NCBI GenBank assembly: GCA_003024785.1
Contig: PUQB01000050.1
Location: forward strand, 62,001-126,000
Direction of reading: 5' to 3'
Source of the DNA: Selaginella tamariscina
Lineage: Eukaryota; Streptophyta; Lycopodiopsida; Selaginellales; Selaginellaceae
DNA: 64,000 bases
This document shows, piece by piece, positions 21,897 to 46,478 of the stretch (the first letter of the stretch is position 1; every line of letters begins with the position of its first letter). Under the pieces are notes generated by a model, which was not told the origin of the DNA, did not search any database, and saw only the letters and a list, made by a program, of their open reading frames with translations. Made by a program: the position numbers and the translations under genes.

Positions 21897-23864
21897 ATGG
21901 ACTCGTCCAGCTGCTTCTGGCCCCTGCCCCAAAATTCACTCCTTGCAGCTCCGCAAAGAGTGAGTTTACTGTGCGTGCGTGCAAAATATACGGTATATGG
22001 GTTATATGTACAATATGCAATTAATGTTTTCCCATGTTGAAATGTAATGCTCCTACTACGCAAAATTCGCCTTTTCATTTGTGTACATGCTTGTCCCATT
22101 GGAAAATGTGCTTTAATATATTATGAGTTAACAGAGTACTGCGTTTGTAGATACAACGAGCAGAAGAAGCATAACTACAGCAGGGATTTGGAGGAATGCT
22201 TGGAGAAGCACGTGTTAGAATGTGACAGGAAGATTCAGCGGGCTCTGAAGCGGCTAGATGAGGAAGATGTTCATGCGGCCACTGCAATTTGCGTCTCTGA
22301 AGTTACACGGGTAATTATAATGCAATACATATATAATGTGTCTGCGTGTGTAGTCTCAACGTTTTAAACTCCTCTGCAGTGTCCTCAAGGAACAGAATAC
22401 TCAAAGCAGATAAAGGAGCTTTTGAAGGCAGCAGACGATTTAGGTGAAGATATATATATATATATATATAGTGTGTGTGTGTGTGTGTTAAGAAGTTCTT
22501 CACAGCTTCCACTTAATCCTATAAGTGTTTGTTTTGTTCAGAGTTGGAAGGCAAGACTGATGAAAAAGCTAGAGCAATGGCAGAAATTGAGGACTTGAGA
22601 GCCAAAAGAGCAGATATACAAGTACGTGCTTTTATATTATCCTAATAAGCTATATATATGCATATATCAATGTAATCTGTGTCATTTTTAAGTGGTGTTA
22701 ATATATATACTATTTTTATTTTCAGGCTGCATTGCTTTTAGAAGCCTTCAACAAAGACAGGGCTTCGCTACAGGCACCTCCATTGGCTCCTATTCCATAT
22801 TTGGGACTTCCTCCTGATGCTGCGAGGACTCAAGAGATGATCAAAGAGAAATTAAGCAGGGCAGAAGTACTCGGTACTCTCTCTCTCTCTCTCTCGTTCG
22901 CACGCAGGCACAGACACAGAGCTAACGTGTTCTTTTCCGTGTTTAAAGGTGAACAAGGTATGATAGATGAAGCTCAAAAAGCGCTGGAGGAAGCAGAAGC
23001 TTTAAGGAAGGTATGAGCATGTAAAGTATAAAATTCGCTAATAAAATGTTAATATAGAATAAGGTACTGCATGATTTAGTGAATATGATTTGACTTGTAT
23101 TTTCAACAGCTTATTCCAAGGCACGAATCGACACTTCAACAAGACGTGCGAGCTGTAATCCCACTCCCTCTCCCTCTCACCATATTTACATAAAGATTTA
23201 ATTATTATGATTATTTGGCTGGCAGACGGATCAGAAGCTGCGTATCTAAGCATCTATGACAGGTAAAACTCATCAACGACCATAACATCAAAACCTATAA
23301 TTCCTTTCATTTACGCTATTGAATAAATATATACTCTACAAACGCACGATATGGAAATAATGTTTTGGGACGATGTTTTTCTTCAGTGATAGAAGGCTTG
23401 CGGACCATTTTGGTGGAAAACTCATCTCGGGTACATGCGGATCCGAGACAAGCTTGATGAACTTCGTGTAACTCTCACTTTCTCTGACCCTCTCTCTCTC
23501 TCTGTCTCTCTCTTATAATTTGATATGTTGAATGCAGGAGGAGAAAGAAAAGGCGAGAATACTCTCGGAAGAGAAGTAAGTCACTGGCTTATGTAGCTTT
23601 CCTGTATTCTAGACGCTATGACTCTGCATTTGTATGTTTTATTAATCTACGCAAATGCAGACATCGTGAAAGAGGTGGACCCACAGATGTGGAGCGAGTG
23701 AATGATCGTGAGAGACGTACACATACGCATACGCGAGAGAAAAGCCGAGAAAGGGATCGAGGTCGAGAAATCCGAGACCAAAGCCAAGAAAAGGATCGAG
23801 ACCGAGATCAGAGCCGAGAAAGGGACCGAGACCGAGTATTCGTGCGGGAACGCAGTCGTAAAAG
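21897..23864 (+). pseudogene. LUC7: LUC7-like U1 snRNP splicing factor, copy A (5'-deleted)
   Basis: LUC7 proteins belong to the U1 snRNP and help select 5' splice sites. Exons follow the family order: HSLQLRKE end of the first zinc finger (to 21,959), YNEQKKHNYSRDLEECLEKH and ECDRKIQRALKRLDEED (22,151-22,310), coiled-coil exons (22,380-22,443, 22,542-22,621), AFNKDRASLQ (22,726-22,873), EQGMIDEAQKALEEAEAL (22,949-23,010), second zinc finger (23,226-23,467) and an Arg/Glu/Asp-rich RE/RD tail (23,661-23,864). The start codon context is fused directly to the end of exon 2, deleting about 200 bp with the first finger's Cys residues. A 16-bp deletion near 23,243 removes DICGA of the second finger, and one base is lost near 23,421. 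The last exon is missing. Probably dead. Confidence 0.85.
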
Positions 23865-23879
23865 GTAATTAATATTCAC

Positions 23880-23916
23880 TTAACGTAATATTTGTGTGTG
23901 TGTGTGTGTGTGAGAG

Positions 23917-23955
<39 letters not shown>

Positions 23956-25769: not shown

Positions 25770-27129
25770 TGAACATGGAGACTGCTTTTAGGATTATTAC
25801 TACTGCTATTGATGCACAAACTAAGTTGTTGGAGCGCTTTATTGAGGGTCCGTCCTCCTCTTCCCCACTTGAGCCTCATGCCGGGGGATCTGCTTCTAGT
25901 ACTCCTTCATCTTCTTCACAGGCCACAAATCCGAGGGTTTGACCTCAATCTTTTTGTGGTGATCCAGGAGATGATGTATATCACTGGTTTAATCATTTCT
26001 AAATTATTGTTCGTTACCATGGTTGGGATGAGGCTCGTGCTCTCAGAGAATTCCCTACATGTTTGGAAGGCCCTGCGCTCAAGTGGTATAATGGATTGGC
26101 TACAGAGATTCAAACAAATAATAATCAGTTGACGGAATGTCTTAAACGTACGTTTGGCAAAGTTGAGGATTCAGATGATGCTTTCCAACAACTGCATGCG
26201 ATACGACAACATCCTAGTGAGTCTGTTATGCGGTTCAGTATTAGGTTCGGAGATTTAGTTCGGCGTGCATATCCTAACATGCCTGAGCCCATTAAGCTCG
26301 GTATGTTATGGCCAACTATGTGACCCGAACTTGTTTGATTCTTTTGCATTAACTCAACATTTTGAGTTGGTGCCTGGTGAGGGCCATGGTCCCCTTGGGT
26401 TACCTGCTCCTCTTATTCAGTGTGCTGATCCAATGGAGGTTGACGCTGCTGCATATGTGCTTGCACGGCAAGCCTTTCGTGGTCGACCTCGGGGCTCACC
26501 CCGTGGACCACCTCCACGAAATCGTCCTGCACCTGCTTTAGTTCCTGTCCGTGGTGGTCAAAATCCACGGATTCGTGACAGGAGGAATCGGAACAATGCA
26601 GGTCGACCCAATCAAGTTCATTGTTGGGCCTGTTGGGCACCTGGACATACTTAGCGAGCATGCGATGTGTATCCTGATTGGTGTCCACCACATCCAGGTT
26701 GGCGACCATATGTTCTGGATGGTGTGCCTGTGGCAACCATTATGTCTGATGATGAGCTTCTAGATGACGAAGCCTCTCTTGCAGATGGATCTGTTATGAA
26801 AAACTAGTAATCGAGCGACGGAGGGATCCCGGCGATGGAGACTTCACCTCTATGCTTTTTCTGCTATGCATATCAAGGTTTGCAAGTTCCACTAGATCAT
26901 TCAGTTTTCACATTTTCTGCACGATGAATGATCTTTCAGTCACAGTGCTTGTGGATACAGGATCCAATATGTCTTCCATAACTACTTCTTTAGTGCATCA
27001 ATGCTCATTACCCTTAAGACGTGCAAATAAGGTCTTGCACATTTATATGGTAATGGGCAATCTCGTGCAGTATCACAGTACACCACTTCGACTACGCTGG
27101 TTTTGGGTGACAATCGTAAGTTTCATGCA
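25770..27129 (+). pseudogene. Gypsy gag and start of protease (broken)
   Basis: The gag frame starts MNMETAFRIITTAIDAQTKL, runs through a Ser/Pro-rich stretch and the retrotransposon gag core (EGPALKWYNG, FQQLHAIRQHPSESVMRFSI). A CCHC-type knuckle follows (C-x2-C-x4-H-x4-C near 26,625-26,665, with a stop inside it). A retroviral-type aspartic protease then begins with VLVDTGSNMSSI (about 26,945-26,985), which keeps the DTG catalytic triad. Several stops and shifts interrupt gag. The protease is cut at about 27,129, where the 15-kb DNA element begins, and resumes after 42,141 with a VFDIILG stretch near 42,187. Confidence 0.85.
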
Positions 27130-27130
27130 A

Positions 27131-27151
27131 GTTGTAACTAAAATGGGCATG
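27131..27151 (+). repeat. Left terminal inverted repeat of the 15-kb element
   Basis: This 21-bp repeat matches the complement of 42,120-42,140 at 20 of 21 positions. The sole difference is A versus G at position 13. Just inside lies an AT-rich tract with GAATATTC palindromes at about 27,214-27,270, mirrored near the right end at about 41,950-41,977. Confidence 0.85.
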
Positions 27152-27179
27152 GCTATAGTCCCATTTCCTAATAATTAGC

Positions 27180-27620
27180 AATTTTAGCTATTTAATTAGC
27201 ATTTTCTAATATTAAAGGAATATTCTTTAGAATATATGTTTGAAAAGAGAATATTCTTTAGAATATTCTATTTTGTATTCTACCCTTTAATAAATTATAG
27301 CATTCATTGAACAAAAATTAATAACATTATAAAAGTAGAAGGTATTAAATTATATAATATATTGCCTAATATAACAATTAAGGAAGAGCATAAGAGGTAC
27401 ATTATATAAATATTGATGTTGTTATTAAAATATTAATATTTAAATATAACATTATTAATTAAAAATTTGTAGTAGTAAATATATATAAAATCCTATAATA
27501 ATATAGTCAATCTTCCATATCATTTTTTAAATTTATATAGTTAAGTATACAATTTGGTACTATTATTAAAGAGTTTATAATAATTATGAATATTAAATAT
27601 ATGATATTTTATAATTTTGT
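27180..27620. other. AT-rich left subterminal region of the 15-kb element
   Basis: No gene. Several AGAATATTCTTTAGAATATT words occur near 27,214-27,275, then AT-rich sequence up to the stop codon of the transposase gene. Subterminal GAATATTC motifs also occur near 32,390, 32,720, 34,005, 34,060 and 41,950. Confidence 0.6.
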
Positions 27621-27627
27621 AATTGCT

Positions 27628-30600
27628 TTAAGCTTCAGAAAACATACATTCCCTTGCAGTTTTGTTAATCGTGACTTTATCAACGCTTCTTGACATCCAC
27701 CCATATCGAATGGATTTAACATTTATAAAACATGCTGGGTCTTTTTGATTGGGAGACCATGTTTTCTCTAGGCATCCATTATATCTTTCGCTCTCCTTCT
27801 CGTGTCGCCTTTTTTGTGGTTTGAACCATGCAACCTTAACAATACTATTTTTTGTGATTACTTCAGGTGTGTCGATAATTTGACCCATCCAAATAGGCTG
27901 ATTATATGATGACGCATCTGGAGTAATGAGAACCATCATTAGTTTTTGAAGATCCTTGCAGCAATCAAAGTATGCTTTAGGTTTTTGGTTCCTTTGTCCA
28001 AAAAGTGTGGGGTTTGCACTTCCACATCACTACTGGCTTCTATGTCGTCTATGCTCAGTGATGTCATTTCAATCTCCTCTCGCCACCTTGTTTTAGGCCA
28101 GAAAGGGTGTTGCAATTCTGTACTTGTGACAGTAGGCCCTTCCAACTCTCGAACAACAGTCTCCCAATAGTCGACCACATGCTTATATAGTTCTGAGTAA
28201 CCAGTTGCCTTATCAGAATTCTTTGGCATCGATTTTTGAACCCATGCCACATATTTTTTGATGCCATCAATAATAACCTCTTGTTCCTTGAGCTGGGCAC
28301 TCAATGGAATAGGGTCTGGTTGTCCTTCTGGGAGAAGTGGCTTTCCATCCTCTCCACTTTTGAAGAGCATTAACCCTCTTTCGGTAACCACTCCTGCTCT
28401 GATGGCCGTAACTTGTACTGCATAATAGGTATACCATCTCGTATGGAGAAAAAGAATTGTAGCGGCACAAGGTGACCAACTAAAGAATCACTCCCTTCTT
28501 TTATATACTCCTTGAGAAATTTTTTGAAGTCTGGCACCTCAGTCACAAGCAAAGCACAACTTTTTTTGGAGATGCAATTTTCAAAAAGATTCATCATATG
28601 CGGTAAAGTAAGTGCACTTGTCCTTTTTGTAGAGTTGGAGACCTTGCTGAAGAACGCATCAATATCTTCATGAGTGTGACCAACCATAAGGAAACTGAGC
28701 GTGATTGTTTCAAACACACCTTTGGCAACAAGCATTGACAAGTATGCTAGCACATATCTAGAAAATAAAAGTAAGTATGAGCTTGAGAAACCCTTAAGTA
28801 AAATGATTTACCTATTTTTGTTCTCGCCTGCACAATTATCCATCTGTAAAAGCAAATGACGAGGAAGCTTATTTGATGTTGAGGACACATGTACACTATT
28901 TGAGCTAGATCCCTCCACTGAACCAGAACTCTCAACAGGGCCATCTATTTTCTGTGCAGGCTGTTGACAATGCCTCTCATATTCCCAAGTAGCCTCAAGT
29001 GCAGACGTGTTCATGAGAGCATTATGTAAAGGTTGAAGGTGTTGTTTCTTCACTTTGAGATCACTGATAGGACTTGTCTGTGAGTGGGCTTCAAGGTTTC
29101 TGAAACACATGGCTAATGACCCAATAGTGAAATTGGAGTCGCTAGACCAATGTGGAAGTGAAAAGTGTCCATATGACTCACAACCGTGTCCATGTGTTAG
29201 CACACCTGTCAATGAAATCGGAAGTTTCATGACATTTCCAAGGCACTTTGGTGTTGCAAAGAGCTTTGGAATGCTGGTCTTTGAATGATCCATCTTGTCA
29301 TGGATCAAGCACAGGTACTCTGATGGGCGTGACACAGAAAGCATGCGGTGTGCATAGTACTGAGACCGGCAAGTTTGTTGTGCAATCATGTGGGCCTCCA
29401 TCTTCTTTTGAATGGCAGTGATCTCCACCAAGGTTTTTGCACAAGCCTCTGCAGCCTTCAATGATGTACAAGTGTCACACTTGGAAAAGCTAGAGTGTTT
29501 TGCAATCTCCACATCCTTAAAATGAGTATTCCATATGTTGTTGAAGGTACCAGTGCAGATTGCTTGGAGCCCCATCAAACTGAGGCACTTGTTCACATGT
29601 TCACACAGTTTCAATTGAGTGTAGATTGAAGGCAAAACCTTGAGATTTTCCCTGACCCCTGCATTTGTGGTTCGGCATTTGTGAGGCATCCTGTCTGCAT
29701 TTGCTTCCACAAAAGCCTTGAGTATCTCTATGGCTGCCATGATGTGAGAGCGGGTTTTGACCAAGCGAGTGTTCCCATGAACTGAGGTTCGCGCTCCATC
29801 TAGCCACTCATCCCTCCGACGGTAGAACGTGGTCTTTGGGATCCCGTATATACTGTACCAAGCTTTGAAGCAGATGGCCACCTTATTAAATACCATGGAT
29901 GTACTCTGATAACCTGTGTCCGAGGCCATTCCATCAATACACCCAGTTAGTGCAGCATATACAAACTCATGCCTTTGCTTTTGGGTGAGCATACGAAAGA
30001 CATGTCTACATTGGGTAATTTCATTCCGGTCTGCCATCTGACAACACTTCTTCTTGCAACAGTCAATCGTGGAAATGCTCGTAACACTTTCGGAAGATGT
30101 AGGATCCATCTTTACCCTCTTGCTGAACTTGCAGGGAAGATCTACAAACCCATGAATCGCCTTTTTTCTTACAAAAGGACCAATGCAAGGAACCTCTTCA
30201 AATATGAGTTGTGTTTCTTCCGGGTTGTTATTATTGAAATCCAACCCAGAATATGTTGAACCATCTTGCCGTCTTAATTCAGATGTTCGCCACCTCACGA
30301 GGGATCCAGGATACAATGTGCCATTAGGTGAAACCTCTGTCACAACTACACCCACGAAGTCGGACCCTAGTTTCTCTTCTGACACTGCTTCCATTGGATT
30401 TATAGCTGTGATGATGCCTCTTCCGACTTCAATCTCACGAAGAAAGAGAATCACCTCATCCATCACAGCAGGCAAGCCATCATCTGGTAAACTCGTGCTA
30501 CTATTTGTTTGTGACTCTGCATATTCTGTGTCAGCCTTGACTTCATCCAAATTCCACAATACAGGAGAACCCTCCAAATTCCATTCCCAGAACCTCAACA

Positions 30601-30761
30601 TGCTTGTAAATGGTGTTCACCCATACGTACACACAAGATCCTTGGGCAATATTGTGACATGATGCATTATTATCTCGAACTTCCACAGTTCCAGTGCCAA
30701 CTATCTTGTTGTTCCGAAGAAGACATACTTTATCTCCAGTATTAAACATATTGTCCTGCAC
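27628..30761 (-). CDS. DUF7869-like putative transposase with chromo-like C-terminal domain
   Basis: Probably the transposase moving the 15-kb element. The minus-strand product starts MQDNMFNTGDKVCLLRNNKI, a beta-rich N-terminal region. It has a Cys pair region CCKKKCCQMADRN, a middle helical part with KCDTCTSLKAAE, and an RNase H-like core with LCLIHDKMDHSKT, LLQMDNCAGENKNR and FLMVGHTHEDIDAFF. The conserved acidic residues are candidate metal ligands. This layout fits proteins annotated DUF7869. A 54-bp intron (28,758-28,811) splits the ENKNR/YVLAYL junction. The C-terminus (27,628-27,940) reads IWMGQIIDTPE and VKVAWFKPQ, like BAH/chromo-type barrels. Frame breaks near 30,590, 28,380 and 27,944 interrupt it; the last two are fixed by one base in an A run. 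Total about 970 residues. Confidence 0.7.
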
Positions 30762-30902
30762 ATAAATAATTGTATTATTTATGATATCTGTTTATGCAAT
30801 ATTTCTAAGAAATCTGAATTACGGTTACTTAATAATATGCATATGCAATAATACATAATTATGTTTAGAGATAATATCTCATGTTTGATTAATACAACTG
30901 AT
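30762..30902. promoter_or_regulatory. Presumed transposase promoter region
   Basis: An AT-rich stretch of about 140 bp lies between the transposase start codon (30,761) and the first palindrome of array 1. It is the only non-repetitive sequence upstream of that gene, so its promoter must use this stretch, the palindrome array, or both. No clear TATA box was assigned. Confidence 0.35.
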
Positions 30903-31640
30903 GGGCGGGATTAATCCCGCCCACGAATCCCTCCGACGAGGAACGGTCGGCGGGATTAATCCCGCCGCCGACTCAACCCCTTCGGAGAGAGTCGGCGGGA
31001 TTAATCCCGCCTTGGACTCCCTCCGACAAGGAAGAGCCGGCGGGATTAATCCCGCCGCCTCTTCCTCCTCGGGGGGAGTCCGGCGGGATTAATCCCGCCG
31101 ACTCTCCCCGAGAGAGTCGGCGGGATTAATCCCGCCGGACTCCCTTCCTCGTCGGAGAGAGTCGGCGGGATTAATCCCGCCTTGGACTCTCCGAGGAGGA
31201 AGAGGCGGCGGGATTAATCCCGCCGGCTCTTCCTTGTCGGAGGGAGTCCAAGGCGGGATTAATCCCGCCCACAATTCTTACGACGGGGAATGGGTGGCGG
31301 GATTAAACCCGCACATAACTCTCTCCAAAACTATGATTTCAAAGAGATCTCGGGATAAATCCTGTCCCCAAATCCTTAAAACAGGGATGTGGTGGCGAGA
31401 TTAATCCCGCCACCCCTTCCCTGCCTCCTAAAATGGTTGGCGGGATTAATCCCGCCGACAACTCTTTCTAATAAATTCTGGTAACTCTTCATCAGTTGAG
31501 AAGGTTATCGGCGGGATTAATCCCGCCACTCTTTTTCAGTGGCGGAGAAGCATTGCCCGAGAGATGGTGGCGGGATTAATCCCGCCACCTCTTCGAAGAG
31601 GCGAAAAAGAAATGGCCGGATTAATCCCGCCGCCCCGGTT
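30903..31640. repeat. Palindrome array 1: about 16 units of GGCGGGATTAATCCCGCC
   Basis: The 18-bp perfect palindrome, often extended to 20 bp (CGGCGGGATTAATCCCGCCG), recurs every 30-50 bp. About 13 units are exact; near 31,300, 31,350, 31,393 and 31,616 they are degenerate. Spacers are GC-rich, for example CTTGGACTCCCTCCGACAAG. The spacers are also mirror partners: 31,009-31,045 is the reverse complement of 31,217-31,253, and inside it 31,053-31,085 closely pairs with 31,182-31,215, centred on a hairpin near 31,105-31,120. The block could fold as a large nested cruciform. GC content jumps sharply against the AT-rich element. Confidence 0.95.
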
Positions 31641-32269
31641 AACCTAGAATATTAAGTTAAAAGGATATTTAAACGGGATAAATCCCTAACGAATATATTA
31701 TAATCCTAATGCATTCCTAAACCCCTAAATTGTAATTTTAAGAGAGAATGTAAGAGAGTGAATCTTTATAAGTATTTTTAAATTTGTTATAATACTTACT
31801 TGTAAACAGCACTGAAGGCGCCGTGCTTTCCTATAAAGAATAGCACCCAATTTAATCTCGCTCCTGAGATGATCACTATGAAGAAAAAAGAAGATCTAAA
31901 GAGTGAAAAATACAGAAATGAAGAAACCCTTGCCGGAGAAAGAACCAGATCTGAATTTGAGTGGGAAATTAAATGCATTTTCAAATTTACATGTCAGACC
32001 GACAATACATATGTCAGAAATTCAAATTTTTTAAAAAGAACAGAAAATAAAATTTAAGATGAGTTGACACAAATATCCGACACTCTGACATATATACTCT
32101 CCAGTTCCAATGAGTATTTTAAAATTGCATTTAATGTTATTCAAGTGATTCAAGCTGTTTAATATTACGAAATTTTAGACTATATTCTACATTCTTAGTA
32201 TTCAAGTATATTTATATTATATATATATATAAATATATACTTATACAATAAATAAATTGATATATTATT
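31641..32269. other. AT-rich spacer, no gene seen
   Basis: AT-rich sequence following array 1, with one degenerate palindrome-like word (AAACGGGATAAATCCC near 31,672). A short open frame at 31,869-32,057 is Lys/Glu-rich and unrecognised. Confidence 0.5.
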
Positions 32270-33000
32270 ATGTATCATTTAAAATATATTCATAGTCTGT
32301 TTATTATTATTATTTTCTTAATTACTCGAGTATTTAATTTTCATTTCCTAGTATCAATGGGATATTCTTTATTATTTTATTAATATTTGAAGAATATTCT
32401 AATATTAAACCTGATTATCATAATTAAATTAGTCTTGTTCTTAATTATTGCAGTAATTATTCTACATTTGTATATATTAATGGGATTTTCTCAATTAATT
32501 TGTTATTATTTCAAGAATATTCCTGTGTTAAACCTTATTATCAATATTAAATTAATATATATTATTAAAATATATATGACTATATATTAGATAAAATGAT
32601 GTATTATTATGTATAATTTAAAATATGTTCATAGTGTGTATATTAATATCATTTCCTTAATTACTTGAGTAATTAATCTTCTTTATATTAATGGGATATT
32701 CTTTATTATTTTCTTATTATTCCAAGAATATTCCAATATTAAACATGATTATGATAATTAATTTAGTTAATTATTTGAGTACTTAATTTACATTTGTATA
32801 TATTAATGGGATTTTCTCAATTAATTTCTTATTATTTCAAGAATATTTCAATGTTAAACCTTTTTATCAATATTAAATTAATATATATTATTAAAACTAT
32901 ATATGGCTATATATTAGATAAAATCATATATTATTATGTATAATTTAAAATATGTTCATAGTGTGTTTATTAATATTATTTTCTTAATTATTCGATGTTT
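32270..33000. repeat. Imperfect tandem repeat, period about 330 bp
   Basis: The phrase TATMATTTAAAATATRTTCATAGTSTG occurs at about 32,274, 32,609 and 32,939. Each time it is followed by TTATTANTAT, TTCTTAATTA, and then (before the next copy) ATGGGATATTCTTTATT and AAGAATATTC words. Two full units plus the start of a third are visible, AT-rich throughout. Confidence 0.7.
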
Positions 33001-34150
33001 GTTTTGCACACATATATAAACACAATCATAAATTTACACACGCATTACAAGAACTTACAAAAACACATATGCACACACATGCACAACCCTAAACCAAACT
33101 GAAGAAATTGTTGCTTCTTTATTGAAAACATCATGTTCAACGCATGTATGATATATGTACTCAATCTGTGTGTATGTAACACATTGAATTTACATGTGTA
33201 ATATTTATATTAAGCTTGTTGGGAGCAAACCCTAAACCCTAAACCCTAAACCCTGTGTATACATGTGTGTACAAAAATAATTTTTCAACACTCTCTCTTC
33301 ACACCATGCATGATCCATCCTAAACCCTAAACCCTAAACCCTAATATGTAACACAATGAATTTACTCATGTAATATGTATGTATGTCTGTGTGTATACAC
33401 GTGTGTATGTATATATGTGTACTTGTATGTATATATGTGTACTTTCTGTCTTCTCTCATACATACACACCATGCATGATCCATGTTAATATGTACTGTGT
33501 CTCTTCTCTCAAACATACACACCATGCATGATCTATAATATGTACTCGGTCTCTCAAATATTATGTACTAATATGTATGTATGTCTGTGTGTATAATACA
33601 CACCATGCATGATCCATAATATGTACTGTCTCTCTTCTCTCATATACTATGTATGTATATCTGTGTATAATATGTGTAAGTATATATGTGTACTAATATA
33701 TGCAATGTGTACAAAAATAATTTTTCAACACTCTCTCTTCTCTCATACATACACACCATGCATGATCCATCCTAAATCCAAAACCCTAAACCCATGTAAT
33801 ATGTATGTATGTCTGTGTGTATACACGTGTGTATGTATATATTATGTGTATTAATATATGCAATGTGTATGTATGTATTGATACACATGAAACTTTAACA
33901 CTCTCATGGACACACACATGTTAAATCCCTGCATGATTTATATTTTTGGGGTGTATGTGATACACCCACGCACACGCACGCGCTAATAATATAATGAAAG
34001 AATATTCGTTTAGGGCGAATCTATATTTTATTCTTTTTAGGGTTTAAGTATATTCTCAGAAGGAATATTCTATTAGGGTTAATATATATATTTAATTCCT
34101 TTAGGGTTTAGGTATATTCTTAGGGTTTCAAGAGGCGGCGGCGGCTGTGC
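33001..34150. repeat. Minisatellite region with interstitial plant-telomere tracts
   Basis: Exact CCCTAAA runs occur at 33,228-33,254 and 33,319-33,343, and a near-copy at 33,769-33,792. Between them the motif ACACACCATGCATGATCCAT recurs at about 33,300, 33,463, 33,517, 33,599 and 33,749, with GTATGTATGTCTGTGTGTAT tracts. No coding sequence. Confidence 0.8.
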
Positions 34151-34166
34151 ACACAGGTGAGATCTG

Positions 34167-34203
<37 letters not shown>

Positions 34204-34851
34204 ATATGTATAGGAGTGTGCGTATAATTTTATTTATTAGTTTTATCTCTCGCACACACACGCACACTCCTGTGTATGTATATGTGTGTGTGGGTGTGTG
34301 TTTGTTTATCTGTATGATTTTATTTGTTTCGCTCACACACGCATACACACGATATACATATACACATATATATATATACCTATATACATATATACATACA
34401 TATATTATGTGTACCAGTATCTATAAAAATTTTTATTGATCTATCTCTCCCACACACACGCACACTGCTTTACACACACACACACACATATATATATATC
34501 AATGCATATTAACAAATAGTATACAACACTAGTTTATATATATGCTTATATATTCATATGGGTTATATATATACACACATATATATATGTGTGTGTTTAT
34601 CTGTATAATTTTATTTATTTATTAGTTTTATCTCTCGCACACACACGCACACTCCTGTGTATATATATGTGTGTGTGTGTGTTTGTTTATCTGTATGATT
34701 TTATTTGTTTCGCTCACACACGCATACACACAATATACATATACACATATATATATACCTATATACATATATACATACATATATTATGTGTACCAGTATC
34801 TATATAATTTTTTTTATTGATCTATCTCTCCCACACACACGCACACTGCTT

Positions 34852-34891
<40 letters not shown>

Positions 34892-35233
34892 ATATTAACA
34901 AATAGTATACAACACTAGTTTATATATATGCTTATATATTCACAGACTCTCTATATCTATATACACACATATATATGTGTGTGTTTATCTGTATAATTTT
35001 ATTTATTTATTAGTTTTATCTTTCGCACACACATGCACACTCCTGTGTATATATATGTGTGTGTGTGTTTGTTTATCTGTATGATTTTATTTGTTTCGCT
35101 CACACGCATACACACGATATACATATACACACATATATATACCTATGTACACACATATATTATGTGTACCAGTACTGTATAATTTTATTTATTTATCTAT
35201 CTCTTGCACACACACGTACACTCCTATACATAC

Positions 35234-35264
<31 letters not shown>

Positions 35265-35340
35265 CACACACATATATATATGTGTGTGTTTTTATCTGTA
35301 TAATTTTTTTATTTATTAATTTTATCTCTCGCACACACGC
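34151..35340. repeat. Tandem repeat, period about 330-390 bp, built of microsatellites
   Basis: A unit containing TTAGTTTTATCTCTCGCACA, CACTCCTGTGTATATATATG, TTTGTTTATCTGTATGATTT, GCTCACACACGCATACACAC and ATATTATGTGTACCAGTAT recurs starting near 34,230, 34,618, 35,010 and partly 35,318. All reading frames across it are shadows of the repeat. Confidence 0.8.
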
Positions 35341-35349
35341 TAAGCCCCT

Positions 35350-36970
35350 CGAGCGGCGGGATTAATCCCGCCGCTATAGGTTTATGGCCTCGGCGGCGGG
35401 ATTAATCCCGCCGCTATATGGTTGGGGCCATGGCGGCGGGATTAATCCCGCCGCCGAGGCCCTTCACGCAGGCTATGGGCGGCGGGATTAATCCCGCCGC
35501 TCTAGGACAAACCGAAGAGCGGCGGGATTAATCCCGCCGCCCATGGCCTGCGTGAGGGGCCTCGGCGGCGGATTAATCCCGCCGCTCACCCATGCCCTGC
35601 GCGGAATGCGGCGGGATTTATCTCGCCGGCAATGGCCTGTGTGAAGGCCCTAATGGCGGGATTAATCCCGGCGGATTCCGCGCAGGGCATTTACAGGGGA
35701 TGGGCGGCGGGATTAATCCCGCCGCTCATGAGGCTAACCGAAGAGCCTGCATGAAAGATCCTGCACGGAAGGCTAACCGAAGAGCCTGCATGACATGTCC
35801 TGCGCGTAAGGCGGCGGGATTAATCCCGCCGCCAGGGAATTCACGCAGGACATGAACGGCGGGATTAATCCGCCCCACGCTCATGCCCTTCGCGGAGGGC
35901 GGCGGGATTAATCCCGCCGCTCAGGCACTTCCGCAGGATATAAGCGGCGGGATTAATCCCGCCCCCACCCATCCCTGTTCAAAATGCCGCAGCCAATATA
36001 TATGTGTAGCGCATGATTTACGAGAGGGCGGCGGGATTAGTCTCTCCGAACCTTCATTGCCCGGTGGCGGGATTAATCCCGCCACCCTTCTTTTTTTCCT
36101 CCATTGGTATGTTGAATCAATCCCGACTAACTCTGTCTGAGACGGAGAAGGTTTACAAAATACCAATGGAGGGAACTGAGAAGGGTGGTGGGATTAATTT
36201 CACCATCCCTTACATGGTGGGCGGGATTAATCCCGCCGCGTACGCATGCCCTGCGCGGAATCGGGCGGGATTTATCCCGCCGCCATTGGCCTGCCTGAAG
36301 GGCCTAGGCGGCGGGATTAATCCCGCAAGATTTCGCACAGGGCATTGGCGTTCGGCGGGATTAATCCCGCCGACTAAGGCCCGAGTGAAGGGCCTGGGAG
36401 GCGGGATTAATCCCGCCGGACGCCAATCCCTGCGCGGAATCGGGCGGGATTTATCCCGCCGCCATTGGCCTGCCTGAAGTGCCTAGGCGGCGGGATTAAT
36501 CCCGCCCGATTCCGCGCAGGGAATTGGCGTCCGGCGGGATTAATCCCGCCGCATAGGGACCGAGTGAAGGCCCTGGGCGGCGGGATTAATCCCGCCGAGT
36601 CTTCAATGCCTGTTGGAGGAATGAATCCCGCCACCCTTCCTTTTTTCTCCATTGGTGAGTCGGACCAATCCTAAACGTTTCTGTCTGAGACGTAGAAGGT
36701 TTTCAACATACCAATGGAGAGAATTGGGAAGGGTGGGGAAATTCATTTAACCATCCTTACATGGTGGGCGAGATTAATCCCGCCCCTTTCTGGAGTCACT
36801 GAAGGGGTGTGAGAAATAAATCCTGCCCAGTTCTCTCTGAGACCGAGAAGGGTGGCAAGATTAATTCCGCACTCCCGTTCAAGGCCTCCAGAAAGGTGGC
36901 GAGATTAATCCCGCCCACTCTTTCAGGAGGCATTGAAGGGGTGGCGAGATTAATCCCGCCGCACCTTCCA
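35350..36970. repeat. Palindrome array 2: about 31 units of the same 18-bp palindrome
   Basis: About 20 near-exact and 11 degenerate units of GGCGGGATTAATCCCGCC. Spacers again form inverted partners: 35,450-35,485 (GAGGCCCTTCACGCAGGCTA) pairs with 35,537-35,574, and 36,413-36,446 is the reverse complement of about 36,501-36,537. Others are direct copies, for example CCATTGGCCTGCCTGAAG at about 36,282 and 36,462. Toward 36,600-36,970 units decay to GGCGAGATTAATCCCGCC and similar. A pair of about 100-bp blocks around 36,080-36,200 and 36,630-36,750 (CCTTCTTTTTTTCCTCCATT..CATACCAATGGAG) is also duplicated. Confidence 0.95.
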
Positions 36971-37090
36971 TGTGAATATATATGTGTATTAGTATATATA
37001 AGTTGCATATCTCATTTTATTTACTTTTATCATCTTATTATAATATTTCGAGTAAAAGCTAGGAATCTAGTAAAACTAGAATCTATGTAA

Positions 37091-37177
37091 AACTGTCCAG
37101 AGCTCACATTTGTGGTGGTTCTAAAACGAAATGTTATCTTTCTTTTGCACTAGCACAAATGTGAGCTTCGGACAGTT
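37091..37177. repeat. Short perfect-loop foldback upstream of the ParB-methyltransferase gene
   Basis: AACTGTCCAGAGCTCACATT plus TGTG (37,091-37,114) pairs with 37,154-37,177 as a stem of 24 bp with two mismatches and a loop of about 39 nt. It lies between array 2 and a CAG acceptor at about 37,281. It resembles either a tiny MITE or a pre-miRNA-sized hairpin. Confidence 0.7.
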
Positions 37178-37319
37178 AATTACGTCTACTTCTCTCTGTG
37201 TATTATTTTTGTATATTCGGGTTTATACAAGTGTGTGTGCGTTTTTATATGATTTGTATTCATAGTGTATTATTTTGCAGAAGGACGATTTGATCAAACA
37301 AGGAGATCGAGTCATTAGT

Positions 37320-40300
37320 ATGGAGTCGTCGTCAAATTCTGGGTAAGAATTAAAATAAAATCTGTTATACTCGGATACTTGAACTAATCATTTTTGTATT
37401 CAGATGTGGAATTGAGGTGACATTAAAGACAAGAGCAGGAGAAGAGATGGGCAGGGGGATTCTGGAATCAACTTGGCCATATTTTAAGATAAATGGGAAG
37501 CGCATTGGAGCAACCATGGCTGCTGTCAAATTAACCTCTGTCACATCTCATGGACAAGCAAAACAATGGAAAGTAGATTCGCTAGTCAAGCACCCGAAAG
37601 CAGGCTGCGAACCCAGATTGGACGATTCTCGACACATATGCCTTGTTCCATCCAATGTCACGTTCTCGGATCCAGAGGTCGTCAGTTACAACATTAATTT
37701 CGGGTGGTTTTGTCGACTTGTGGATAATGACGTTCACGTGTTCACTAATGATGTTGACCTTGGAGTTCTTCTTCAACTCAACGAAAGCCCATCTATGGAG
37801 GGGATCCATCTGGATGTCTACTTCGAAAATCTTCAGACTCATCGAGTAGGTGTATTGTCAGGAGATATTGCTTCACAATACAGAAAATCAGCAAGTGAAG
37901 CAATCTTCCCTCTTCACATTGAAGAAGAACACAGCGACATCATAATGGAGATTGAGAGGGTGGCTCGGTCTCAGGTTCTCTACAGATCACGTTCAATTTG
38001 CTTAGGGAGCTTTGGGAGCTGGAAGAGTGTACCGAGAACACTAGAACAGCTGCAGTCGGGGATCACACATGTTGATTCGGATCGCAAAAGAAAATCATCA
38101 ATCGTTTTGTCAGCTGCACCTGTGGCATCTCATGCTGCAATAAGTCACAAGGAAATGATGTTGGATGATAAGATTTATCCTTGTAGGGTTAAATATTGCA
38201 GCGTCAACCCAAACTTCAATTACAGGCCACTCAACCAGGAACGTGTAGCTGAGCTCATGGAGAAGATGAAGGACGACAATTCTTATACCGTTCCACATAA
38301 TGCTGTTTTGTGTCCATACTATGAAAGAAGGAAGGGCGCTGACAAAGTCTGGATCACAACACCAGAACAACTCATGAAGATTCAGACGGAGAATAAAAAT
38401 CTATCAAGTACTACATCATTAGTGGCCAGCACACAATAACGGCAGCCCAACGACTTCTCGAGAACACAACAAAGGAACGATGGCAACAAAACTTTCCGAG
38501 CATACCCGTGAGAAGCTGACAAAAAGATCGGCGTTTTTAGCTAAGCCGAATCTCACAATCGAGCAGTACCATAAGTTATCGGCGGAATGGGACGCTGCAC
38601 ACCAACCACTACAACAGCAAAATATGGGAGAAGTTTAAACACACGCGAGCCGTGTGGGAATCTCTTCAGCGACCACAAAGAGCTACCGCAGGGAATACAC
38701 AATCTGCGGAATACCGGGTAAGCAAATTGTTTGGGCGGGATTTATCTCGCCGGTATATTAATCTGTCTTTTTCCTCAGAGAGTTGAAGAAATTGCAGCAG
38801 TTGATTTTGCCCAGGTGGGCGGGAAGGAAACATCCTTTCTGATGATGTTGATTTCTTGCCCCGAAGATAGGATCTTTGCCAAATGGTTGGGGATTATGGA
38901 ATCCTTTTCAAAAGGAACACTGAAGAAGAAGCAGACAAGTGAAGGGGAGCCCTCAGAAAAGTCTGCAAAGAAACCCAGTAAGACGCCGAAGGCTAAGTCT
39001 GTTCAATCTACAAAGGATGTAGACAACGATTTCAAGCTCACATGGTTGAAGCCTTTAAATGGAACAACGATGGAGGAGATGGAAGTCTTGGCTGATTTGG
39101 TGATCGATGGCAAACTACAAATTAATAACAGCAGCCCAACCTCTCCTTTTCATCTCAAGGCAATGGAGTTGAAGACGGTCAGGCATTTCAAGGAGTGGTT
39201 GGGAATACACTGCCACAAACTGGGTTGGACCTCGACTTCAACATATGAAGAGGTCAGCAAATATTTGCATGTGACGAACGATGATATGCTTGTCGAATGG
39301 GTGAACCAATCGGAAGATCTGGCAAGAATCTATTGCACGCCAACGCCAAAAAGGAGAACATTGGGATGACGCCTTCTCTTATGGCAGTCCTTCAGCAGCG
39401 GAGAACCGAATTGAACCTTATAAAGGAGGATGCTACGAATCACGACAAGCCCTACAGATGTTTGTTGTTAGATTCGGAGACTTTATGGGGTAACATCACT
39501 GCTTGTAGGAAACCGTTTCAATTGTTCGTGATGGATCGGCGGGTGTCAAAAAATCTTTCGACAGATAGGGCACTAGAGGATCTGGTGGAGAAACTTAGCC
39601 GTGCAAGCATATACATAGAAGGTATTTATTATTGAATTCATGCTTGCGCTCTTCACTGATACCTACTTTTTCAGGTATTTATTTCTTGATTCTTGCTCAT
39701 GTCACCGATACTTTTGCCTTCGCCTTCGCCAAGAAGAATAGACATCGTTGGACAGGATTTTATATGAACGATGCTAATCCCAAGTGCATTGATACCGTTG
39801 TTCACTTGGTTGTTAGGAATGCGCCAAACAATTTCAAGCTTCCAAATGACTGGCCAGGCATCTGTTTGCACTCCAACGGCCCTGAACCTCCATCCGATAC
39901 ACCGATAGGTATGAGTGACGTATTCGGCAATGTACGTTATCCAAACATTACAAGTCAAGCGGCACGGAGCATCGTCAACTTGATTAGGGGTCCTCACAGT
40001 GATGCGTGGGTTTTTGACTACTGCACTAGGGGGTCCGTCTTGAAGGAGTGTTACCTTCGGCATACATGTGTGTTTGCCGTTGAAAAGGATAAGACCATGG
40101 TTGAGGACCTGAACAAGTGGATAGATTGGGTCTCAACTGAGTACCCCAACGATCCATAAAGGCGTATTTGAGAAAGTTCCCTCCAGATAAGTGCGATAGC
40201 TCTGAAGGTGAATCTGGTTCAATCTCGGAGTCTGAGAACGAACTTCAATCAGATATTAGACCGGAAGTTATCTCGAGGAGTACAGAACATTCGCACACTC

Positions 40301-40419
40301 CAGGACCCATGGAAACATCAATAGAAGATGCAGAAGATCTTGAACCATCTCACAAGCGGCTTAGACCTTCTTCGCCTCACTCAGAAGGTAATAGCGAAGA
40401 AGAATTGATAATGAATTGA
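37320..40419 (+). CDS. ParB-like nuclease domain fused to DNA N4/N6-methyltransferase-like domain
   Basis: Exon 1 starts MESSSNSG (37,320-37,342); a 61-bp intron follows. Exon 2 encodes an unrecognised N-terminal region of about 250 residues, then a ParB/sulfiredoxin-type domain: RPLNQERVAELMEKM (about 38,223-38,270), then, after a one-base break in an A run at 38,395-38,399, YYIISGQHTITAAQRLLEN, the GxHxxxAA hallmark. Further shifts follow near 38,512 and 38,590. An intron at about 38,709-38,778 contains a palindrome copy. After a Lys/Ser-rich linker and a break at 39,348-39,352, a methyltransferase fold is visible: FVMDRRVS at the DPPY position, GIYFLILAHVTDTFAFAFA after a 53-bp intron (39,622-39,674), and WVFDYCTRGSVLKECYLRH followed by FAVEKD, matching the SAM-binding FxGxG region. 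After a break near 40,156 the tail is acidic and Ser-rich with a basic KRLRPSS. ParB-methylase fusions are known in phages and bacteria. Confidence 0.65.
38709..38778 (+). other. Intron carrying a degenerate palindrome unit
   Basis: Donor CGG|GTAAGC and acceptor TCCTCAG|AGA flank about 70 bp. GGGCGGGATTTATCTCGCCG (38,732-38,752) is a two-mismatch version of the array palindrome, the only unit found within a gene body. Confidence 0.6.
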
Positions 40420-40691
40420 TAGAGTGATGAATAGTTGTAAATGAGTGTAACATAAGGCATTTTTGTATATTTCTTTTATATTTGTACAGAAAATAAATTC
40501 TCAAGGATTAATGAAGCTTTTAGTTCAAACATGGGTCACACATTAACAAGGTAAATAATATACCTTGATAATTTTAAGGTCAGCTAATTATCATTTTGCA
40601 GATGTAATGAAATAATTGAGAACATGGATTTTCAGCATTGGCATGAGGTAAGAGAGGGGTTTGGCGACAATTTCTTGTGCCACATGTCAGA
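40420..40691. other. Spacer with 5' leader and intron of the phosphatase gene
   Basis: Contains a TTTTGCAG acceptor near 40,601, a short exon-like piece with MDFQHWHE (40,624-40,647), and a GAG|GTAAGA donor paired with a GTCAG acceptor at 40,690. The short exon is out of phase with the main frame, so it may be untranslated leader or a further one-base break. Confidence 0.4.
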
Positions 40692-41858
40692 ATGACAGAG
40701 TTCATGCAGGAAATGGATAATAATGCAGCTCAAAACATCGTTACCATGGGGGCCACTTCATCATCATTTTTATTGGCTTCAGTTCCGAAATCAATTTCTT
40801 CAGCGCATGCAATATCTGAATCTTGTAAGGATGATGTACAATTAAATGATGAAGGGATAGGCAACGAGATAGTGGCAACGGATAAATGTGAAAGGGAGCA
40901 AACAAGTGATTTGCAAAGTATTCAAGAGGCAACGCTATCTCATGTTACTCATGGCCATATTGTGTTGTTGGATGTCAATGGTGTTCTGCTTCATCGACAA
41001 AGGCCCCAGGATAGAAAAAAAGAAATCAAACAAGGAGATTTCATTCCTTGTCATGGTAAATTTCGATATGATATTATTTTTCGTCCAGGGTTGGATCGTC
41101 TCTTTCAAAAGCTTAAGGAGATGGGTGCGCTTGTGGGGATTTGGTCATGCATGCAGATTCATAACTTAACACCGCTGTTGAATTTACTTAAGAAACATTG
41201 TAGTGTTGCAGAAGAGGTGATTCGTAAAGATTGGATTTTTGACCAGCGAATGTGTCATAAACCTCTCGAATTTCACAATATAAGAAAGGAAAGCAAGCCA
41301 TACTTCTTCAAGAATGAAAGAATAATTGGGACTCATGGGGAGATCAGTCGCTTAAGGATAACGAAGAATGCACATATCTTAGTAGTAGACGACTCTCCTC
41401 AGAAGGCTATGCTCAACCAAAACATTGCTTGTATTCATCCAATCACTTTCGATCCATATTCTGATACCGATATCATGGATGAGCTAGTGAACTACTTGGA
41501 TACGTGCCTCAGAAAGAAGAATCTCGAAAATTTTTGTGAGCAGTATCCACCGTATCATACATTTCCTGAAGCTTTTCTTTCTCGTGATATTGAATTTTAT
41601 AAAATGAAGGATAGCAACCGGGCGCTTTATAATATTATTCTTAAGGAACGTCAGTTTTTAGATGAGCCTTTATGCAGACCTTCTCTTATCACATCTTATG
41701 TATTAACAAGGATGGCAACTCCCAATTGCATTCGTGAGAGTGTTAAGTGGTGGCAACAACATCAAGATATTGACCAAAATGATTTGATTAATCCGGAGAG
41801 TGATGATTTAGACAAAATGAAAAGATTTCTTTGTATGATAGAAAGAAAGTATTTATAA
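40692..41858 (+). CDS. FCP1/NIF-type HAD phosphatase-like protein
   Basis: An uninterrupted frame of 388 residues starting MTEFMQEMDNNAAQ. The HAD fold is visible: motif I VLLDVNGVLLHRQ (about residues 93-105), motif II-like VGIWSCMQ, a KPLEF region, and motif III/IV HILVVDDSPQKAML followed by the family's closing ...DIMDELVNYLDTCL and ENFCEQYPP. The DxNG form of motif I (Asn in place of the second Asp) and the VDDSPxKA pattern are typical of a plant branch of NLI-interacting-factor-like proteins, so a host gene was probably captured by the element. The first Asp nucleophile is kept; the Asn makes phosphatase activity doubtful. It is the only cargo gene without frame breaks. It lies about 270 bp after the ParB-methyltransferase gene on the same strand. 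Confidence 0.8.
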   Translation: MTEFMQEMDNNAAQNIVTMGATSSSFLLASVPKSISSAHAISESCKDDVQLNDEGIGNEIVATDKCEREQTSDLQSIQEATLSHVTHGHIVLLDVNGVLLHRQRPQDRKKEIKQGDFIPCHGKFRYDIIFRPGLDRLFQKLKEMGALVGIWSCMQIHNLTPLLNLLKKHCSVAEEVIRKDWIFDQRMCHKPLEFHNIRKESKPYFFKNERIIGTHGEISRLRITKNAHILVVDDSPQKAMLNQNIACIHPITFDPYSDTDIMDELVNYLDTCLRKKNLENFCEQYPPYHTFPEAFLSRDIEFYKMKDSNRALYNIILKERQFLDEPLCRPSLITSYVLTRMATPNCIRESVKWWQQHQDIDQNDLINPESDDLDKMKRFLCMIERKYL

Positions 41859-42119
41859 AAAATTAACATGTTGATAAGAAAATGATTTCATTTGTAATTA
41901 TGTTTGATAGTATTTCTTCATTATTGTAAACTATTTTTAGAATAATATGAATATTCTAAGATATTTTAGGAATATTCCTTACTAAGTAAGGTTATTGAAG
42001 GATTAATTAATTAATTAATTAATATTTAAGGCTTAATTACATATTAATTAAATGATTAATTAATAATTAAAACTTAAGTATTAATTAGTAATTTATTTTA
42101 TATTCCCATTTTCACGTAT
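41859..42119. other. AT-rich right subterminal region of the 15-kb element
   Basis: Contains GAATATTCTAAG and GGAATATTCC words (about 41,948-41,978), then (TTAA)n-rich sequence. No gene. It mirrors the GAATATTC-rich left subterminal stretch. Confidence 0.6.
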
Positions 42120-42140
42120 CATGCCCACTTTAGTTACAAC
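42120..42140 (-). repeat. Right terminal inverted repeat of the 15-kb element
   Basis: CATGCCCACTTTAGTTACAAC is the complement of the left repeat with one difference. It is followed by G and then TGCA, the presumed target duplication, and the gypsy sequence resumes. Confidence 0.85.
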
Positions 42141-42141
42141 G

Positions 42142-45100
42142 TGCATTTTCCCTCTGGGTCTCTTAGGGTTGTCCATTCCTAAGTCTTTGACATTATTCTG
42201 GGATGTGATTGTTGAAGCAGTCGAAAGGTATGTGTGATTTTTCACTCTCTCCTCCTGTATTACGCTTGGAGTTTGTGTCTCTGCAGTCTGTTCCTTTACG
42301 TCCAGAGAAGCTTGTTACTGTTTGTATCAACACACAGCTCTCTTGATTCCAGTCTTGGGGTGGTGTTCATTTCAACAGGTTCAAATGTCGGATCCGTCAT
42401 CGGAGTATCGAGCACAATGCATCAAACAACTTAAGTAGCAGTATGTAAGTTTGTTCAAATTTGATCTGTCCCAGGTGCACGTGTGAAGACTTGACATTAT
42501 ATACCCACTGGCAATGCAAAGTCTTTCAAAGTCCCGATTCGACGTAAGTCACCAAAAGAGTTATCAGCCATGCGAACATCTGTTACAGATATGATCGGTA
42601 AGTGGGTGTGTCGTCCATCACGGAGTCATGGGCATGTGAACCTCATTTGGTTCCCAAGCCTGATGGATCTTTACGATTTTGTGTGATTACCGACCTTTCA
42701 ACGATGTTACCATCAAAGATGTTTATCCACTTTCGAACTCTGCCGATCTATTAAATCGTTTGGGTTAGAGTTGATGGTTTACTAAGTTGGATTTGGCATC
42801 AGGATATTGGCAAGTTCCTATGGCTGAGGAGGATATTCCTAAAACGGCATTCCAGACACCATTTTCTTTACGAGTTTTTTGGTTATGCCTTTTGGATTGA
42901 CTTCAGCTCCTGCCACCTTTCAACACATGATGGATGAGCTTCTTTCAGATATGCTTGATATCACTGCCGATTTTATCGATGATGTGTTCATTCATGGGTC
43001 TGGTTTTTGGGAGAATCACATTCGTGATGTACGGCGCGTTCTTGATCGATTTCGAGAAGTTGGCATGAAGTTGAAACTTGAAAAATGTGTGTTTGGTTCG
43101 ACCGACACTACTTACTTGGGTTACCGTATATCTCGAGAGGGTTTACAGGTGGATCCAATGAAGTTGCGAGCTGTTCGAGAGTTCCCATCCCCGTACAGTA
43201 TAGGAAGTCCAGCATTTCTTGGGTAAGGTGCAGTACTTGGGTGGATTCATTAATTATCTCATTGATCGAACTACCCCTCTTCGGGAGTTAATTCGTCCAC
43301 AGGTACCTTTCAGGTGGACTCACAGGTGTCAGCAGGCATTTGACCAGTTAAAAGTGTTCCTAACAACTTCACCATTGCTTCAATACCCAGATTTTACCCG
43401 TCTGTTCATTTTACGAGTAGATGCCTCAGATGTTGGTATTGGTAGTGTGTTGATGCAAACTGATGCTGTGGATCCTTCAATTTGACACTCGGTGGCTTAC
43501 ATTAGTCGAGTACTTGCACCGGCTGAGCAGAATTATTCCATTACTAAAAAGAATGCCTTGCTGCTATTTGGGTTTTGAACGACTTCATGCTTACTTACAT
43601 GGGAGTGAAACACTTTTGGAGTGTAATCATGCTGCTGTCACTTCCTTGTTAAAACAGAAGAATTTAGTAGGTCGTGTAGCCAGATGGGCAGTATATAACT
43701 TTAAGGTGGTGCATAGGCCTGGGCGAACAATGGTGGATGCGGATGCACTTTCTCGAGCACCCCTTTCTGATTCCACTTTGCCTGCTCATGCAGTCACTGT
43801 AGCATTCGGTTTGATACAAGCCTCTCAGGTATTCGATGCCGACTTACCATCCTTGGAACAGTGGCAGGATGCCCAAAAATATGAACCGTGGATGAGCCAA
43901 TTACGGGATGCATTTGCAAATCCTTCTTCCGAACCGTGGTTTTGACAATATCATGCTCAGTTTCGACCTCATGATGGTTTATTGTATTTTATTGGGACAA
44001 ATCTAGAAGACATATGGCGGTTGGTTGTGCCCTCTACATATGTTCCACACCTTCTTTGAGCATATCATGATTCGCCTATTGTTGGAGGTCATCTTGGTCA
44101 CCAACGAGTGTTGGAGAAGTTTCGCAAATCTTTTTATTGGCCCAACATGTGTGGTGATGTGATCAGGTATATTCAACGCTGTCCCATTTGTCAAACTCAG
44201 AATTCCTCTACGACTCGGGCAATGGGGGTGTTAGAGTCCATCAACGTCTCTTGCCCTTTTGAGTTAATTGCAGTGGATTTAATGGACCTTTTCCACGTTC
44301 TTCTCAAGGTAACCAGTATATTATTGTCGTATCTAATTATTTAACTCGTTGGGTGGAGGTTGGTGCTCTTCCGGATGCAACTGCCATGTCAACAGCTTTG
44401 TTTTTATTCCATAATGTAGTTTTGCAGCATTCTTGTCTAGAGCGGATGTTATCAAATAATGGCCCCGCTTTCATTGCCGAGGTATTTCGAGTGTTGTGTG
44501 AGAGGTTAGGGTAAAACACTCATTTGCCTCTCCATATCATCCACAAACTGATGGTTTGGTGGAGCAATTGAATCGGACCTTCAAGGGTATGATCTCGAAG
44601 TATGTGAACTTCAATCACACTGACTGGGATTGGTATTTGTGATGCTTGAGATTTGCTTATGTAATAGGCATTTAGAGTTCAATTGGTATCTTTTTATTCA
44701 AGGCATTGTCTGGATATGATCCTAAATTGCCTAGTGAATTGGGATTATCATCGAATCTGCCACGTGCCGAGGATGCGAAAATGTGGGCTCGACATTTGGA
44801 TGCTGCCTTGCCTCTTCTGTGTGCAGAGTTTGTTGAACATCTTGGTCGAGCTCAAATACGACAACAATCTTTACAATGCACGACATCAAATTCCACCAGA
44901 CTATGCTGACGGTGACTTAGTACTGGTACATTTTCCCAAGCTGACTGCACCTGGGCTTGCAACTGGTTTATTACATAAGTGGCTTGGTCCCTACCGAGTA
45001 CTCCGAAAGGTTGGTCCTTAGGTGTATCAGGTACAATTGGTGGGCTCTTATGAGGTTGAGATAGTTCACGTAGTTCGAATGAAACGGTTTGTCGTTCAAG

Positions 45101-45201: not shown

Positions 45202-45403
45202 TGTAAGATACTATTATTATGTAACGTAATGTATATACGCATGTGTATATACACACATGCATAGTGACACATGGGTGGTGATCTGGGCCGCCATGTGTCA
45301 GTGCCATGTCGCATGTGTGCCACGTGGCAGGAGGTCTCCTGTATATAAGCAGGTTTTTGTAGCTGAATATATATGACATTTTGAATATATATCTGCTCTT
45401 TCA
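45202..45403 (+). mobile_element. 3' LTR of the Ty3/gypsy element
   Basis: 202 bp, starts TGTAAGATACTA and ends CTCTTTCA. It matches the 5' LTR (25,507-25,712) apart from scattered substitutions and 1-3-bp indels. Its last 75 bp also match 19,530-19,603, linking the retrotransposon to the segmental duplication boundary. Confidence 0.85.
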
Positions 45404-45541
45404 AGATTAGAATAGCAATTATTTATAAGTACATTGTTTCATTTGAAATTTAAATTAAAATTTAATAGATTTATATTTTGTTTATAAAGTTCTCAAAATA
45501 AATTTTACGTAGTTCAAATTTATTACTAACGGAAGTTCTTA

Positions 45542-45589
<48 letters not shown>

Positions 45590-46247: not shown

Positions 46248-46303
<56 letters not shown>

Positions 46304-46460: not shown

Positions 46461-46478
46461 CTTGTAATGATGTGTGTG

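Follow-up and report, generated by a model that had tools for sequence, protein, structure and literature searches.

The DNA that we analysed, a stretch of 64,000 nucleotides from Selaginella tamariscina (referred to below as the window), contains a DNA transposon of about 15 kb at positions 27,130-42,141. Its left terminal inverted repeat lies at 27,130-27,151 on the plus strand, and its right one, placed by its sequence match to the left repeat and by the ends of other copies, at 42,120-42,141 on the minus strand; the stretch 27,131-27,151 agrees at 20 of 21 bases with the reverse complement of 42,120-42,140. Exactly two occurrences of GTTGTAACTAAA without mismatch are present in the window, i.e., the two element ends in inverted orientation; when up to two mismatches were allowed there were 18 matches, against 11.8 expected. 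The target-site duplication, TGCA, occupies 27,126-27,129 and 42,142-42,145, with one unmatched base between it and the matching repeat on each side of the window copy.

TGCA was present at all of the ends that were read in the genome, i.e., at 19 of 19 left ends in other copies (20 other places having been tried), at 20 of 20 right ends (the window included) and on both sides of all 17 further copies for which both ends were read, as well as of the window copy. An A preceded the left TGCA in 18 of the 19 ends and a T followed the right TGCA in 19 of the 20, so that the usual target would be the palindrome ATGCAT. Element lengths, computed for 19 copies, ranged from 13.1 to 15.5 kb. A preliminary description of this locus had proposed an element with matching terminal inverted repeats and 4-bp TGCA duplications that encodes a transposase of its own along with two other genes, and had named the boundaries of other copies as the way to check it; the family proved to have many copies, and these shared the same ends. 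In the parts available of the open-licence literature on TGCA target-site duplications and DNA transposons, we found no TGCA-specific DNA transposon family.

The element is inserted within the pol region of a gypsy retrotransposon, as had been suggested. The gypsy long terminal repeats, which are about 96% identical, flank it at about 19,536-23,947 and 45,325-51,295. An aspartyl protease frame lies upstream of the element (Pfam, E = 1e-5 to 3e-5), and downstream there are an RNase H-like frame, with a weak profile match just below the cut-off, and RT-like and integrase-like frames spotted by eye only. The right long terminal repeat carries an insert of its own at 47,665-49,281, whose minus strand encodes a Replitron C-terminal domain (Pfam, E = 1.6e-10). 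One other copy of the element (L017, contig C1390) has a right flank identical to that of the window copy, and may be a duplicate assembly stretch of it or a copied gypsy element. Elsewhere in the window, a Surp-domain frame at 14,734-15,345 on the minus strand (Pfam, E = 3.7e-17) presumably resembles the splicing factor SF3A1, and AT-rich stretches of about 20% G+C are found at 16,001-19,000 and 1-2,000.

The transposase gene, identified by a Pfam profile, by protein matches and by an intact copy elsewhere, has two exons and occupies 27,628-30,749 on the minus strand. Pieces of the two exons matched DUF7869 (PF25273) with E values of 5e-12 and 1.2e-27, and their scores of 46.2 and 97.2 bits, against a curated cut-off of 26, place the protein in that family. 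The Pfam entry bears no superfamily name, and the word DUF7869 was not found in the open-licence literature searched. A protein search yielded six matches, with E values of about 3e-83 or lower for five and 4e-7 for the sixth. Most of the matching proteins had the motifs HDKMD, DNC and GHTHED as well as the cysteine clusters; in the element's transposase GHTHED is encoded in exon 2. The candidate DDE residues are a D in HDKMD, the D in MDNC and the E or D in GHTHED, and the first D of HDKMD was invariant in seven aligned rows. In a predicted model of one transposase relative (P0002; seven rows), the succession of strands and helices is compatible with an RNase H-like core, at a low-confidence mean pLDDT of 44.

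The second gene, which resembles ParB and methyltransferases in short motifs, runs on the plus strand from 37,281 to 40,419, and was delimited by splice signals and by comparison of copies. Its exons lie at about 37,281-37,342, 37,404-38,717, 38,779-39,621 and 39,675-40,419, from splice signals and with any upstream first exon or exons left aside. The majority reading of 11 copies is a single frame of 989 amino acids. The encoded protein is like ParB in one motif and like amino-methyltransferases in motif I, with key residues changed in these stretches. The conserved motif of ParB carries an arginine, and the corresponding stretch here, SGQHTITAAQRL, has a T at that position. Searches of Pfam, PHROGs, NCBIfam, PDB, phage and IMG/VR collections returned only chance-level hits in support of either a ParB or a methyltransferase identity, and no homologues were found among 5.8 billion proteins at a limit of E = 1e-3. 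The designation of a ParB-methyltransferase-like gene in the preliminary description therefore stands at the level of motifs, but no profile or sequence search supports it. There is only a hint that the transposase and the ParB-like protein share an N-terminal domain: with a combined profile the real sequence came first of 1,000 (E = 0.005), but with the two single-domain profiles it came second and ninth.

The third gene, at 40,677-41,858 on the plus strand, encodes a NIF-type HAD phosphatase-like protein of 393 amino acids (start codon provisional), and is open in the window copy and in 10 of 11 copies overall. The match to the NIF profile (PF03031; E = 2.4e-12, 47.3 bits against a cut-off of 21.8) makes it a member of that family, in agreement with the HAD phosphatase reported earlier. 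NIF/SCP-type HAD phosphatases have the catalytic motif DxDx(T/V); the element's protein reads DVNGV at this point, the second Asp being replaced by Asn. No homologues were found among 5.8 billion proteins at a limit of E = 1e-5, a single-sequence search of PDB with the protein found no NIF relative, and a structure prediction from the lone sequence had a pLDDT of 34. The gene had been taken for a captured host phosphatase; it is cargo of the whole family, and a degraded relative of the ParB-like/phosphatase pair is present elsewhere in the window (about 9.4-11.6 kb), but its capture from the host is putative. On the minus strand at 9,397-11,640, a decayed counterpart of the phosphatase gene is accompanied by a faint match (E = 0.26) to part of the ParB-like gene; their order is that of the element, and a 288-nt stretch around the phosphatase start is 71% alike. 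Host chromatin or RNA polymerase II might be the target of the NIF protein; alternatively, the protein might be passenger cargo.

We searched the same genome assembly (300.7 Mb, 1,391 contigs) for further copies. The left end preceded by TGCA gave 941 exact matches, a count of TGCA-bearing ends alone since the query contained those four bases; marks within the methyltransferase-like and phosphatase genes gave 1,516 and 1,691 exact matches respectively, and the reversed control of each query gave none. The family thus has many hundreds of copies in this genome. If all were full-length, which is a generous assumption, 941 to 1,516 copies would amount to 4.7-7.5% of the assembly. The parts of the element also occur together. 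The phosphatase mark was found 9-20 kb downstream on the same strand in 32 of the 53 left ends compared (opposite-strand control, 1 of 53); the other 21 had no such mark at the expected distance, and some of these were near contig ends. For 83 of the 100 phosphatase marks listed, a methyltransferase-gene mark lay upstream in the same orientation, in 82 cases at 0.9-1.1 kb; the other 17 had none there. With the phosphatase gene as a DNA query, 40 of the 41 best matches scored (of 2,121 candidates) were full-length at 99-100% identity, and with transposase exon 1 all 73 best matches scored (of 7,377 candidates) were 97-100% identical and had no internal stops. These identities describe the best-scoring matches only, so that older copies are invisible in them, and they point to recent amplification.

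The element also contains a feature that was not part of the preliminary description, i.e., arrays of the 18-bp palindrome GGCGGGATTAATCCCGCC. At up to four mismatches there are 46 sites in the element: 15 in a first array at 30,904-31,631, just upstream of the transposase gene; 30 in a second array at 35,355-36,960, just upstream of the ParB-like gene; and a single imperfect site at 38,734-38,751, in an intron of the ParB-like gene, which was seen in all ten of the other copies read. The transposase and ParB-like genes are divergent, each is preceded by one of the arrays, and an AT-rich, microsatellite-like spacer (32,200-35,320) separates the two. The 12-bp core, at no more than one mismatch, occurs 41 times, against 0.055 expected in shuffled array sequence. 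Spacing is mostly about 45 bp, 27 of the 43 within-array intervals being 43-46 bp. The cores are 92% identical between sites, whereas 23 spacers of like length have a mean identity of 34% (26% when shuffled). Because the core is conserved and the spacers are mostly free, a bound protein is a better explanation than a passive minisatellite, and the palindromes look like candidate docking sites for a DNA-binding protein, perhaps the element's own. Some array spacers are nearly identical (96% for the best pair), so local duplication has also shaped the arrays.

The palindrome appears to be specific to the family. The assembly contains 27,128 exact copies of GGCGGGATTAATCCCGCC, against about 0.0002 expected and none for the reversed control, a genome-wide average of about 16 exact sites per phosphatase mark; in the window no site with two or fewer mismatches lies outside the element. 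Ten other copies, in which each array was fetched in part, had 8-11 sites in the array before the transposase gene and 3-6 in that before the ParB-like gene. On contig C1, among the first 100 palindrome places listed, all eight phosphatase marks had an array 3-11 kb upstream, and six of the eight had two. Of the 17 site clusters listed on this contig, 14 were matched to phosphatase marks and three had none in reach; for two of these three, an exact left end lay some 3-5 kb away.

The reading that we favor, with a probability of roughly 0.55, is that the element in the window belongs to a large family of terminal-inverted-repeat elements of ~15 kb that was recently amplified, and that its palindromes bind a regulatory or anti-silencing protein encoded by the element, most likely the ParB-like one. 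On this model the transposase would be a DDE enzyme that cuts at the terminal inverted repeats, and insertion at ATGCAT would duplicate the central TGCA. The palindromes would serve as binding sites for an element-encoded protein, probably the product of the ParB-like gene, which by analogy might load on the arrays and control the two promoters and/or prevent silencing of the element. The anti-silencing step would have a precedent in the VANC proteins, which act on motif arrays of VANDAL elements, although here the protein is unrelated and the sites are palindromic. VANDAL21 is a MULE-type element with proteins unrelated to those of the present element, and VANDAL/MULE elements have a 9-bp duplication and a MULE transposase, as opposed to the 4-bp TGCA and the DUF7869 transposase found here. 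In Arabidopsis, VANC21 binds a motif that is dense in the non-coding parts of its own VANDAL21 family, at a density unique to that family (PMC5735166), and VANDAL elements lose DNA methylation throughout when their VANC proteins act on them (PMC10398659). The resemblance lies in a short motif present at high density in the non-coding parts of one transposable element family; however, the VANDAL21 motif is 9 bp, non-palindromic and of experimentally shown function, whereas here it is a palindrome whose function we infer (PMC5735166).

A competing account is that either the transposase or some host transcription factor binds the palindromes, which would be ordinary promoter elements only, the role of the ParB-like gene being elsewhere. 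Both arrays adjoin gene starts, and repeats within other elements are bound by a transposase or an accessory protein, as by TNPA in En/Spm. However, end-recognition repeats are usually subterminal, and the two arrays here lie 3.8 kb and 5.2 kb inward of the ends; they also look family-specific, as judged from the number of exact sites per phosphatase mark and from their restriction to the element in the window. We consider this account unlikely, although it deserves to be kept in mind.

It is also rather improbable, in our estimate, that the frame breaks are real and that many copies, including that in the window, are dead passengers mobilized in trans. The preliminary description had called the element autonomous, which does not apply cleanly to the window copy, with at least three frame breaks in the transposase gene and several small ones in the ParB-like gene, each of the latter being absent from 6 to 10 of 10 other copies. 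In another natural copy, L047, the transposase gene is intact, its two exons encoding a stop-free protein of 1,021 amino acids. Broken frames affect at least one gene of several other copies as well (of 11 copies, exon 2 of the ParB-like gene was open in none, exon 3 in four and exon 4 in seven), and the breaks showed no strong homopolymer bias. On the other hand, some long-read sequencing errors are mostly deletions, and single-base events against the majority in 11 copies comprised 51 deletions as opposed to 11 insertions. Moreover, a 660-amino-acid open frame was kept in 59 of the 73 best transposase exon 1 matches scored.

Selection was assessed from changes common to at least two of 11 copies, singletons being omitted as the likeliest sequencing errors, and the 21% synonymous share expected of random changes was derived from the codon make-up of the transposase and applied to all three genes. 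Treating sites as independent despite the shared ancestry of the copies, which makes the P values optimistic, we found 8 synonymous and 7 other shared changes in the transposase (8/15, P = 0.006), 14 and 16 in the ParB-like gene (14/30, P = 0.002) and 1 and 10 in the phosphatase (1/11, P = 0.93). Singletons comprised 15 synonymous changes, 49 non-synonymous changes and 5 stops in the transposase; 5, 20 and 1, respectively, in the ParB-like gene; and 3, 0 and 0 in the phosphatase. When singletons were added, the synonymous excess in the transposase vanished (23/84, near the 21% expected). In all pairwise comparisons pN/pS was 0.39 in the ParB-like gene, as against 0.99 in the phosphatase. The ParB-like gene thus shows signs, in these comparisons of copies, of having been maintained by selection, and in the 11 copies there was no sign of selection on the phosphatase.

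A synonymous excess of this kind is also in keeping with the idea that the product of the second gene is a functional DNA methyltransferase of the N6-adenine or N4-cytosine type and modifies the DNA of the element itself, which has been proposed for algal relatives. In addition, the protein has a motif-I-like stretch, VFDYCTRGSVLKECYLRHTCVFAVEKD, and the strand layout is like that of the algal element Sola1-1_Ec32, in so far as the available account describes it. However, N6/N4 amino-methyltransferases have a DPPY-type catalytic motif and a SAM-binding FxGxG. In the spliced reading of the gene we saw neither a DPPY/NPPY-type motif nor FxGxG, the glycine loop of VFDYCTRGSVLKECYLRHTCVFAVEKD is degenerate, and there was no profile match. 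An active enzyme is decidedly unlikely, and the earlier suggestion that the element brings its own DNA-modification-type enzyme is not supported by profiles or by recognisable catalytic motifs; it is less likely that the methyltransferase-like half modifies DNA than that it is a degenerate or structural fold. Finally, it is very improbable that the arrays are a neutral minisatellite grown by slippage: array positions and element lengths vary among copies and some spacers are almost the same, but slippage should leave spacers matching as well as cores do, and the same core recurs in two separate arrays and at the isolated intron site.

ParB proteins load on palindromic sites; a difference from ParB-parS is that the Selaginella element places dozens of such sites before two promoters. 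A bacterial-style system, in which a ParB-like clamp would load on the dozens of palindromes before the two main genes, spread and counter host silencing, allowing growth to perhaps 5-7% of the genome, is a tentative and somewhat doubtful proposal. Elements of the Sola1 superfamily make 4-bp target-site duplications; a 4-bp duplication and terminal inverted repeats are both found here, the likeness resting on structure and gene layout. In phages and bacteria, a ParB-like domain is fused to methyltransferase-type domains; the pairing of domains is similar, but canonical residues and profile similarity are missing in the Selaginella element (PMC12704722). Sola2-Fanzor elements have 4-bp, AT-rich duplications and some Mariner elements carry a methyltransferase, and these are alike in duplication length or in methyltransferase cargo, respectively, with other cargo and other transposases (PMC3627910).

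Giant transposons with ParB-methyltransferase cargo are already known in algae. The closest in layout is Sola1-1_Ec32 of the brown alga Ectocarpus, a giant DNA transposon of 21.5 kb in which a gene on the strand opposite to the transposase specifies a 1,104-amino-acid protein that combines ParB-like with DNA methyltransferase domains, the same arrangement of the two genes as here (PMC12477816). The statement in the preliminary description that no described family has this gene set therefore fails for the main pair of genes, although neither palindrome arrays nor a NIF phosphatase, both of which we found in Selaginella, are mentioned in the available parts of the Sola1-1_Ec32 description (PMC12477816). 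The ParB-methyltransferase proteins of the giant algal transposons were suggested to bind their own element, the site being unnamed in the available text (PMC12477816). In the Selaginella family a candidate site is visible, i.e., a family-specific 18-bp palindrome with a conserved core and free spacers, placed before the two main genes, so that a single protein and a single oligonucleotide would suffice for a direct test of the proposed self-recognition. With its ATGCAT target and an intact, high-copy transposase, the family is also a fair candidate for a transposition assay.
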